13,272 nucleotides of DNA, from positions 1 to 13,272 of the forward strand of contig CAMYJJ010000053.1 of assembly GCA_947258735.1 (NCBI GenBank), read 5' to 3'. This document shows, in pieces, positions 11,756-13,272 of this stretch. Under the pieces are notes generated by a model. It was not told the DNA's origin. It worked only from the letters and a program-made list of their open reading frames with translations, and did not search any database. Position 1 is the first letter of the stretch; the number at the start of each line of letters is the position of its first letter. This DNA comes from Thermodesulfovibrionia bacterium (GTDB lineage: Bacteria > Nitrospirota > Thermodesulfovibrionia > UBA6902). A program made the position numbers and the translations under genes.

Positions 11756-12844
11756 ATGAAGTCTAATTCCAACGGCAGCCCGGATGAAAATAATGTCTTT
11801 GATGCCCTTGTAGAGAAGGGGGTTTCCAGACGGGACTTTATAAAATTCTGTTCTGCCATGGCAGCAACACTGGCTTTACCTGCATCGTTTATACCAAAAA
11901 TAGCAGAAGCAGTGGTCGCCCAAAAGCCGTACCTTGTGTGGCTGGAGTTTTCAGACTGTGCCGGAGATACAGAAGCTACGCTAAGAGCGTCGAGTCCAAC
12001 CATTTCCCAAATTGTGCTTGATGTGTTTTCTATTGAGTATCACGAGGTAATCATGGCCCCATCGGGATTTAATGCTGAGAAATCGCTGCAGGATATAGTT
12101 AAAAATCACAAGGGTAAATACTTTGCTGTTGTTGAGGGTGCCATCCCCATGGCAGATAACGGTATTTACTGCTGTGTAGGCGGCAGATCTGCACTTGACA
12201 TCGCACGTGAAGTCTGCGGTAATGCAGCTGCCACCTTCGCCGTTGGCTCCTGTGCCACCTGGGGTGGACTTCCCAGCGCAAAGCCGAATCCCACTGGAGC
12301 GGTTGGCGTGGAAAAGGCTGTCCCCGGCATCCCGCTGGTGAATCTGCCGGGATGTCCCATGAATGTTGAAAATTTTACGGCAACGATTGTTCACTATCTT
12401 ACCTTCGGCTCCCTACCGCTCCTTGATGACCGTAAACGTCCGCTGTTTGCACATGGCAAGAGAATTCATGACAACTGTGAGAGACGGGGTCATTTTGATG
12501 CCGGACAGTTCGTACAAAAGTGGGGTGATGAAGGCCACAGACAGGGATGGTGCCTGTATGAAATGGGATGCAAAGGCCCGGAAGCCTTTTTCAACTGCCC
12601 GTCCATTAAATTTAACGAAGGAACAAGCTGGCCCATACAGGGAGGTCATGGCTGTATCGCATGTGCAGCTGACAATAATTGGGACACCATGACGCCGATT
12701 TATAAGAGACTGCCCAATGTTCCGGGATTCGGTGTCGAGAGCACAGCTGACAAGATTGGCGTTGGTCTCGCAGCAGCTACTGCAGCAGGTCTGGTACTGC
12801 ATGGTATTGGAAGGGCGATTAAACCAAAGCAAAAGGAAGAATAG
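11756..12844 (+). CDS. [NiFe] hydrogenase small subunit, Tat-exported, membrane-anchored
   Basis: A 362-residue iron-sulfur subunit that passes electrons between the Ni-Fe site of the large subunit and a membrane partner. The Tat signal SRRDFIKF (24-31) is followed by a hydrophobic stretch, so the folded dimer is exported to the periplasm. Proximal cluster: Cys68 in DCAGDTE, Cys166 in VGSCATWGG, Cys200 in LPGCP. The usual second Cys of the first motif is Asp71, suggesting a 3-Cys/1-Asp cluster as described for actinobacterial-type (group 1h) enzymes. Distal cluster: His238, Cys241, Cys266, Cys272. Medial cluster: Cys281, Cys300, Cys303, i.e. a 3Fe-4S type. A C-terminal helix (about 334-355) anchors it. 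AAAGGGGG precedes the ATG. It contains no in-frame TGA and uses ordinary Cys codons throughout. The large-subunit gene follows after a 142-bp gap. Confidence 0.95.
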   Translation: MKSNSNGSPDENNVFDALVEKGVSRRDFIKFCSAMAATLALPASFIPKIAEAVVAQKPYLVWLEFSDCAGDTEATLRASSPTISQIVLDVFSIEYHEVIMAPSGFNAEKSLQDIVKNHKGKYFAVVEGAIPMADNGIYCCVGGRSALDIAREVCGNAAATFAVGSCATWGGLPSAKPNPTGAVGVEKAVPGIPLVNLPGCPMNVENFTATIVHYLTFGSLPLLDDRKRPLFAHGKRIHDNCERRGHFDAGQFVQKWGDEGHRQGWCLYEMGCKGPEAFFNCPSIKFNEGTSWPIQGGHGCIACAADNNWDTMTPIYKRLPNVPGFGVESTADKIGVGLAAATAAGLVLHGIGRAIKPKQKEE

Positions 12845-12952: not shown

Positions 12953-12982
12953 ATGAAATTTAAATTTCATATGGAGGTGATC
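12953..12982 (+). promoter_or_regulatory. Palindrome and strong ribosome binding site before a TTG start
   Basis: ATGAAATTTAAATTTCAT (12953-12970) is a perfect 18-bp palindrome. It abuts GGAGGTGATC (12973-12982), complementary to the end of 16S rRNA over ten bases and 9 nt before GGAGG's target TTG at 12987. The ATG of the palindrome opens a 13-codon frame (MKFKFHMEVIRIG) that ends at 12994, overlapping the TTG start, which could couple translation. The hairpin could also mask the binding site. Confidence 0.5.
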
Positions 12983-12986
12983 AGAA

Positions 12987-13272
12987 TTGGCTAAAAAGTT
13001 AGTAATTGATCCGATAACAAGAATCGAAGGACATCTCAGGATTGAAGCAAAGGTTGAAAACGGCAAGGTTGTTGATGCCTGGAGTTCCAGCACCATGTTC
13101 AGAGGGATCGAGCTGATCATGAAAGGTCGTGATCCAAGAGATGCGTGGGCCTTTACGCAGCGAATATGAGGCGTCTGAACTACGGTGCATGCAACCGCCT
13201 CGGTGAGAGCGGTCGAAGACGCTTTAGGCATTACCATTCCTGATAACGCAAGGATTATCAGAAACCTTATTT
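12987..13272 (+). CDS. [NiFe] hydrogenase large subunit with two candidate Sec in the N-terminal motif (partial)
   Basis: N-terminal 95 residues of the catalytic subunit; the gene runs off the window. It starts at TTG (12987) behind a very strong ribosome binding site. LVIDPITRIEGHLRIEAKVE and the following FRGIELIMKGRDPRDAWAFT are the standard opening, with Glu14 of the RIEGH motif present. The active-site motif RxCGxCxxxH should follow. Here it reads R59-I-TGA-G-V-TGA-T-T-V-H68, with TGA at 13167-13169 and 13176-13178, exactly at both cysteine codons. The frame continues intact as ATASVRAVEDALGI, TIPDNARIIRNLI to the end. In standard enzymes the first Cys is a terminal Ni ligand and the second bridges Ni and Fe. 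Two independent nonsense changes at precisely these codons are implausible, and a SECIS-like hairpin follows, so both are best read as selenocysteine. The C-terminal motif, where known [NiFeSe] enzymes have Sec, is outside the window. Confidence 0.88.
13171..13222 (+). promoter_or_regulatory. Putative SECIS element of the hydrogenase large subunit
   Basis: The upper stem pairs ACCGC (13194-13198) with GCGGT (13209-13213) and CTC (13199-13201) with GAG (13205-13207). It has one bulged A (13208) and the loop GGT (13202-13204). An outer stem GCGTCT (13171-13176) / AGACGC (13217-13222) includes the first base of the second TGA. The loop lies 23 nt after the second TGA and 32 nt after the first, both inside the roughly 16-37 nt range I recall for bacterial SECIS elements. 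One element may serve both codons. Structure is by eye only. Confidence 0.65.

Follow-up and report, generated by a model that had tools for sequence, protein, structure and literature searches.

Can a [NiFe] hydrogenase carry selenocysteine (Sec) at two of its nickel ligands at once? This question is raised by the gene lying at the 3' end of a 13,272-nucleotide stretch of DNA from a Thermodesulfovibrionia bacterium (contig CAMYJJ010000053.1 of assembly GCA_947258735.1), called here the window. In its large-subunit frame, both cysteine codons of the RxCGxCxxxH motif are TGA. As argued below, the gene very probably encodes a group 1-type [NiFe] hydrogenase large subunit in which the two TGAs at the N-terminal Ni ligands are decoded as Sec through SelA, SelB, SelC and SelD, with one terminal and one bridging Se predicted. 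It probably also represents a widespread natural [NiFeSe2] class, which would combine Se on one terminal and one bridging ligand, Cys at the classical Sec position, one SECIS element for both UGAs, many switches between CGxC, CGxU and UGxU across Nitrospirota, Chloroflexota and deltaproteobacteria, and a bridging Sec whenever the terminal ligand is Sec.

A hydrogenase operon with two in-frame TGA codons

The large-subunit frame starts at TTG 12987 on the forward strand, just 3' of a Shine-Dalgarno-like sequence recognized by eye (ggaggtgatc, 12973..12982), and its first 95 codons extend to the window end (12987..13272). It reads ...RDPRDAWAFTQRI-TGA-GV-TGA-TTVHATASVRAVEDALGITIPDNARIIRNLI, running to 13271, and includes the N-terminal metal-binding motif R-I-(TGA)-G-V-(TGA)-T-T-V-H at 13161..13190 (R to H, forward strand). 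When the TGAs are taken as Cys, the 95 residues match the hydrogenase family PF00374 (E 1.2e-29, 104 bits, model positions 1-57), and the residues flanking the TGAs on both sides align with hydrogenases of solved structure. These matches, together with full-length relatives, bear out what an earlier note on this DNA had claimed, namely a canonical hydrogenase frame whose family sequence continues unbroken beyond the two TGAs. The note had also foreseen that automated annotation would report a 60-residue fragment, and a 60-residue ORF is indeed what genetic code table 11 leaves of the gene. A sequencing error at the TGAs is ruled out, since independent assemblies carry the same codons.

The nearest relative found is a gene of Nitrospiraceae bin97 (locus L113, CP070632.1), 84% identical over 1.56 kb. 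This full-length counterpart has 570 codons, contains exactly two TGAs and matches PF00374 with 796.3 bits over model positions 1-508. Both loci have a recN-like gene upstream. In the window, the hydrogenase small subunit (11756..12844, forward strand, 362 aa) carries a twin-arginine (TAT) signal; it scores 435.6 bits with TIGR00391 (cut-off 179.5) and 23 with the TAT signal model TIGR01409 (cut-off 16.7), and also matches PF14720 and PF01058. Genes for a cytochrome b (PF01292) and a maturation protease (PF01750) lie 3' of the large-subunit gene in bin97, the one locus where they were recorded. The TAT-signal small subunit of the window and these two bin97 genes are those of a group 1 [NiFe] hydrogenase operon. 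Neither a tRNA nor an Rfam match at gathering score occurs in the window. A separate peculiarity concerns the small subunit, which reads DCAGDTE where two relatives of solved structure have ECTGC(T/S)E, with Asp in place of the second Cys of the proximal cluster; the bin97 small subunit has DCAGDTE too. A 3Cys-1Asp proximal cluster is known from group 1h enzymes.

Extent of the double-UGA family

The pattern R-[IVM]-TGA-G-[IVM]-TGA-T-x-x-H was scanned over genome_contigs, in which 84,980 species are represented by a single genome each. At least 120 stretches fit it; among the matches listed, 100 are in-frame hydrogenase large subunits with a double TGA, and the 20 of the 120 that have no hydrogenase context correspond to the chance level. 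According to the phyla named in their records, 62 of the 100 listed loci belong to Nitrospirota, 26 to Chloroflexota and four to other named phyla (single bins), the last eight having no phylum. The double-TGA hydrogenase is thus a widespread family in at least two bacterial phyla and not a single oddity. The Ile codon before the first UGA (13164-13166 in the window) is ATA in 88 of 94 double-UGA genes, its third base being free in the scan pattern.

The C-terminal motif is reached by 80 of the listed loci, and in every one of them it is DPCxxCxxH, with Cys at both ligand positions. Among the remaining 20 loci, 18 extend to the border of the extracted stretch, and two (L008 and L053) have a frame broken before the C-terminus. 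The window ends before this motif, where the earlier note had envisaged further Sec residues, three or four per site in all. That suggestion did not hold: three or four Sec are ruled out for the relatives by their Cys/Cys motif. Thirty genomes were chosen from those of the 100 loci, and 29 of them have a full-length hydrogenase match with exactly two TGAs; in the thirtieth (G001) the two TGAs lie within a broken frame.

Predicted selenocysteine as one terminal and one bridging ligand

Residues 5-95 of the window protein match residues 25-115 of 5xle_L, which we take to be the Desulfovibrio vulgaris Miyazaki F enzyme. The two spans are equal, and window residues 61 and 64 therefore fall on residues 81 and 84. 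The His of the C-terminal motif is the last residue of the 5xle chain (552 residues), which places the C-terminal cysteines at 546 and 549, as in PMC12117559. According to the part of that article consulted, Cys84 and Cys549 bridge Ni and Fe in the Miyazaki F enzyme, and a proton resides on Cys546. The first in-frame UGA (13167..13169, forward strand) is hence aligned with Cys81, a terminal Ni ligand, and the second (13176..13178, forward strand) with Cys84, a Ni-Fe bridging ligand. With the numbering of 5xle_L and the ligand roles of PMC12117559, in the part consulted, the proposal that one terminal and one bridging ligand of Ni are Sec is supported as a prediction. These would be positions other than that of the known [NiFeSe] enzymes, because in the latter Sec replaces the proton-relay cysteine, equivalent to Cys546 (JACS 2024, PMC11212049, as far as the excerpts of this source go). 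The family and the placement of the two codons can be read from the sequence; the selenium itself is deduced.

The protein has full-length homology to group 1 [NiFe] hydrogenases such as E. coli Hyd-1 and Hyd-2 and the Miyazaki F enzyme, the best match being 3myr_B (730.8 bits), with the Hyd-1 chains at about 625. It resembles them further in its TAT-exported small subunit and C-terminal DPCxxCxxH and, in bin97, in its cytochrome b and protease genes, but TGA stands here in place of two of the four Cys codons for the Ni ligands. The full set of ligands of the RxCGxC and DPCxxC motifs is thus complete only if Sec counts as a ligand, the C-terminal pair being Cys in the relatives. The [NiFeSe] enzymes of the HysA type, from Desulfovibrio and Desulfomicrobium, are also a selenoprotein form of periplasmic Ni-Fe hydrogenase, but are more distant in sequence and have Sec at the C-terminal Cys546 equivalent, which is Cys in the 80 relatives mentioned above. 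The double-UGA hydrogenase scores 426.8 bits with the HysA model NF045518, below its cut-off of 780, and 586.9 bits with the broader NF033181, whose cut-off is 600. The archaeal Fru/Vhu [NiFeSe] enzymes likewise have Sec at a Ni ligand, but they belong to a different hydrogenase group; in the excerpts available, they are described with one Sec, in UxxC (PMC13188914), and the archaeal SECIS is placed in the 3' UTR (PMC9499178).

Both positions used here have already been occupied by Sec in E. coli, where Evans et al. (2021, 2024) replaced each Ni-ligand Cys of Hyd-1/Hyd-2 in turn (PMC11212049, PMC13111528, PMC9499178, from the portions consulted), but these variants are engineered and carry one Sec at a time. 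The same two-residue spacing of Sec is found in other UxxU selenoproteins, namely Prx-like, mercuric reductase-like and FmdB-like proteins (PMC13188914, in part), where the Sec residues are not Ni ligands. The portions seen of the HydDB table give [NiFeSe] variants for groups 1a, 3a and 3c (PMC5037454), and those of selenoproteome reviews give hydrogenase alpha subunits with UxxC, with one Sec where a number is stated (PMC13188914, PMC9312934). A hydrogenase with Sec at both N-terminal ligands is undescribed as far as searched: no description of a UGxU or double-Sec hydrogenase was found in the openly licensed literature, as represented by excerpts, and a report elsewhere is possible. None is given in the parts consulted of PMC9499178, PMC5736913, PMC9751293, PMC9469722, PMC8406227, PMC8275790, PMC9961374, PMC13111528, PMC10362691 and PMC12456013.

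Cysteine and predicted selenocysteine variants within one class

A PF00374 search reading through stops was run on 150 genomes of the class of bin97, and the matches of at least 600 bits were kept and counted by hand. Among these 99 matches, 62 have two TGAs, 15 have one and 22 have none. At the DNA level, the 38 two-TGA genes that were read (out of the 62) are all UGxU, the 15 single-TGA genes are all CGxU, with the TGA at the second position, and the 21 genes read among the 22 without TGA are all CGxC. Homologues with UGxU, CGxC or a mixture, as considered in the earlier note, are thus all found, UGxC being the one combination not seen among the loci read. The in-frame UGAs are aligned with Cys of close homologues, as in bacterial selenoproteins.

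A few loci stand apart. L211 (RICGVUPTAH) and L212 (RICGVUPTGH) belong to a different hydrogenase type, marked by PTxH, with a single TGA at the second position; L213 (RIUAVUPTAH) is of this PTxH type with a double TGA, and its C-terminal motif is DCCIACAVH. Two genomes, G122 and G073, hold CGxU and CGxC paralogues together (pairs L196/L224 and L199/L226), each possibly a selenium-responsive pair.

A FastTree tree of 159 rows was built with the motif columns masked, after merging identical proteins (165 to 132) and adding 29 database proteins; L211 and L213 (other hydrogenase type), L212, and the window, too short to place, were left out. It requires 17 changes among the UU, CU and CC states, compared with a mean of 56 when the labels are shuffled. 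For UU alone, at least nine changes fall on strongly supported branches, and UU and CC are interleaved. Judging from this tree, the Cys and predicted Sec forms have therefore switched repeatedly. With the same changes and interleaving, a simple order from CGxC through CGxU to UGxU is not claimed. The repeated switching may occur because a benefit against oxidation is traded against the cost of selenium supply, which we put forward as a proposal.

The variants also bear on how many of the two UGAs are really translated. Perhaps only one of them, probably the second, is fully read as Sec, the first being read poorly or as Cys, so that truncated protein would predominate and mixed enzyme would be minor. 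In keeping with this, the UGA of all the single-UGA genes is at the second position, the nearer one to the hairpin described below, and two UGAs in series lower translation yield. On the other hand, the first UGA has been kept across distant branches even though Cys forms exist alongside, and the lack of UGxC among the loci read also argues against it. Such one-codon reading is improbable, and the decoding of both UGAs as Sec is retained.

Decoding machinery and the meaning of UGA

The genes for Sec synthesis and insertion, on which the earlier proposal depends, are present in most of the relatives' genomes. In the 30 double-UGA genomes, selA and selB are each over cut-off in 29 and selD in 26, each selD having one TGA of its own. 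A tRNA-Sec scoring at least 60 bits is present in 24; this threshold is our own choice, made because the curated cut-off is also reached in 5 of 14 control genomes. No strong tRNA-Sec was found in G001, G012, G023 and G028, in a family search that scored at most 98 candidates per genome, so that a missing tRNA-Sec is not proof of absence; in G002, 53 nt of it are readable. The bin97 genome has selA, selB and selD, and a DNA search retrieved the initial 53 nt of its tRNA-Sec, anticodon loop included, the rest reading N. The family scan, ARAGORN and Rfam near selB, and a pattern search gave no tRNA-Sec match in this genome, and ARAGORN and Rfam reject the 53-nt fragment. An ORF of 405 codons lies on the opposite strand between its selA and selB (L130, 7475-8692). 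G004, which has a double-UGA gene (L045), remains an exception, with no selA or selB over cut-off and no strong tRNA-Sec; since a TGA-containing selD is present, this genome may be incomplete. Among the 30 selD loci extracted, the Sec codon was found by motif in 18, and many have a hairpin soon after it, with another loop.

The sel genes show ability rather than use, because selA is near-universal in the class whatever the motif: it occurs in 74 of 80 genomes (80 of the 94 first listed), Cys-only genomes included, and fails as a discriminator of Sec and Cys forms.

Could a changed genetic code or a suppressor tRNA instead insert a standard residue, either Cys or Trp, at UGA? Homologues have Cys at both positions, and with a tRNA-Cys that reads UGA the enzyme would be a normal one. 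However, in 29 of 95 double-UGA genes (one of the 95 being L213), the first stop codon beyond the motif is itself a TGA, and on this sequence evidence TGA is therefore not simply reassigned. The presence of tRNA-Sec and other sel genes in most hosts examined also speaks against such a change, as does the lack of internal stops in the other NiFe hydrogenases listed for these 30 genomes. Reading as an ordinary residue is thus very improbable, and Sec remains the preferred assignment.

Truncated database entries and the integrity of the gene

A homologue search with the bin97 protein scored 8000 candidates, of which the best 120 were listed. Fragments of at most 510 aa starting just past the UGAs (M/V-HATAS, M-HAAAS or M/V-RAVE) account for 91 of these 120, and the other 29 are full length with CxxC; the 14 of the 29 that were read whole have RxCGVCxTVH and are 72-80% identical to the query. 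The table 11 ORF of bin97 itself starts at a GTG just after the UGAs. That annotation would miss part of these genes, as anticipated, is thus the rule among the best matches.

The same fragments could be taken as a sign that translation stops at the first UGA and restarts at the downstream GTG, the near-invariant codon 12, or that the gene is dead, and frames are indeed broken in 2 of the 100 listed loci. Against a split gene, no Shine-Dalgarno-like sequence is seen by eye 5' of GTG 13203, and the Ni site cannot form without the N-terminal motif, which is needed for it. The amino acids encoded from the UGAs up to the GTG are moreover conserved with varied codons, as are those further on: codon 15 is Val and codon 18 Ala in 94 of 94 genes, with four codons each. 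Codons 1, 2, 4 and 7 were set aside as evidence, since the scan pattern partly fixed them. Decay is contradicted by the full-length, two-TGA frames in all but one of the 30 sampled genomes. A split or decayed gene is accordingly an extremely unlikely explanation, and an intact double-Sec gene is considered in what follows.

A candidate SECIS element

A bulged hairpin, ACCGC(C)UC-GGUGA-GAGCGGU, can be folded at 13194..13213 of the forward strand, i.e., at 27-46 when the first base of the first UGA is numbered 0. It is a candidate SECIS. Its loop contains the GTG Val codon 12 (13203..13205, forward strand), which lies 24 nt downstream of the second UGA and 33 nt downstream of the first. Bacterial SECIS elements usually act within 16-37 nt, and both distances fit.

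The stronger sign of such an element, as judged from the sequences, is synonymous constraint. At codon 12, GTG is used by 93 of 94 double-UGA genes and by 15 of 15 CGxU genes, compared with 2 of 21 Cys genes. Synonymous entropy, scored for 137 codons, is lowest at codon 12 (GTG, loop), codon -1 (ATA) and codon 5 (ACG), all near the UGAs. The six scored hairpin codons average 0.52, versus 0.83 for the 131 others (p 0.002), a set chosen after the hairpin had been seen.

The evidence for the hairpin itself is less uniform. Among distinct double-UGA genes, 92 of 94 form at least five of seven pairs, 56 of them in register I and 36 in register II. In register I, pair 30-44 is A-U in 22, U-A in 16, G-C in 10 and unpaired in 8 of the 56 genes, and the fraction of paired cells is 0.849, whereas none of 500 shuffles, which take no account of kinship, exceeds 0.770. 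Register II, to which the window belongs, shows no covariation in its 36 genes (0.968 paired, shuffle mean 0.961, maximum 0.968). The folding energy of the hairpin stretch is -9.2 in UU (94 genes), -9.0 in CU (15) and -5.3 in CC genes (21). Relative to synonymous shuffles, the mean z is -1.14, -1.68 and 0.00, respectively, and -0.24, 0.15 and 0.15 for a control stretch. Taken singly, only 15% of UU genes reach folding significance; the window does not (p 0.175), and its control stretch is lower (z -2.2). The number of base pairs does not separate Sec from Cys genes (mean 6.20 of 7 in UU versus 5.95 in Cys), and a register displaced by 12 nt pairs almost as well (5.95 in Cys and 5.85 in UU genes). 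RNAalifold over all sequences returned weak short stems only, because different hairpins are used. The CGxU clade (L200-L210) has indeed another one, GCACUG-GCUU-CAGUGC, exact in 9 of 11 loci and formed by 10 of 11. The two double-UGA genes that fit neither register, L099 and L214, carry this hairpin instead, and it is exact in 11 of the 13 loci together.

The synonymous constraint and, less firmly, the hairpin suggest one candidate SECIS for both UGAs. Acting for both, this single stem-loop would allow SelB and Sec-tRNA to insert Sec at both UGAs, which are three codons apart. After Ni insertion and cleavage by the protease, the large subunit would pair with the TAT-exported small subunit, and electrons from H2 would pass to a cytochrome b. 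From their chemistry, the two selenolates may confer more resistance to irreversible oxidation and easier reactivation, at a cost set by selenium supply.

Implications

Where selenium is of benefit at a Ni-Fe site has been probed by placing single Sec residues at one ligand after another of E. coli hydrogenases. The genes described here form a natural graded series of close homologues with none, one or two predicted Sec at the N-terminal ligands, the Ni-Fe bridge included, and with paralogues in two genomes; the role of each ligand is therefore directly testable. If one element does serve two UGAs three codons apart, it would be a useful test of the reach of SelB. Since the database entries for such hydrogenases are mostly truncated fragments, counts of hydrogen uptake in these Nitrospirota and Chloroflexota may be too low.
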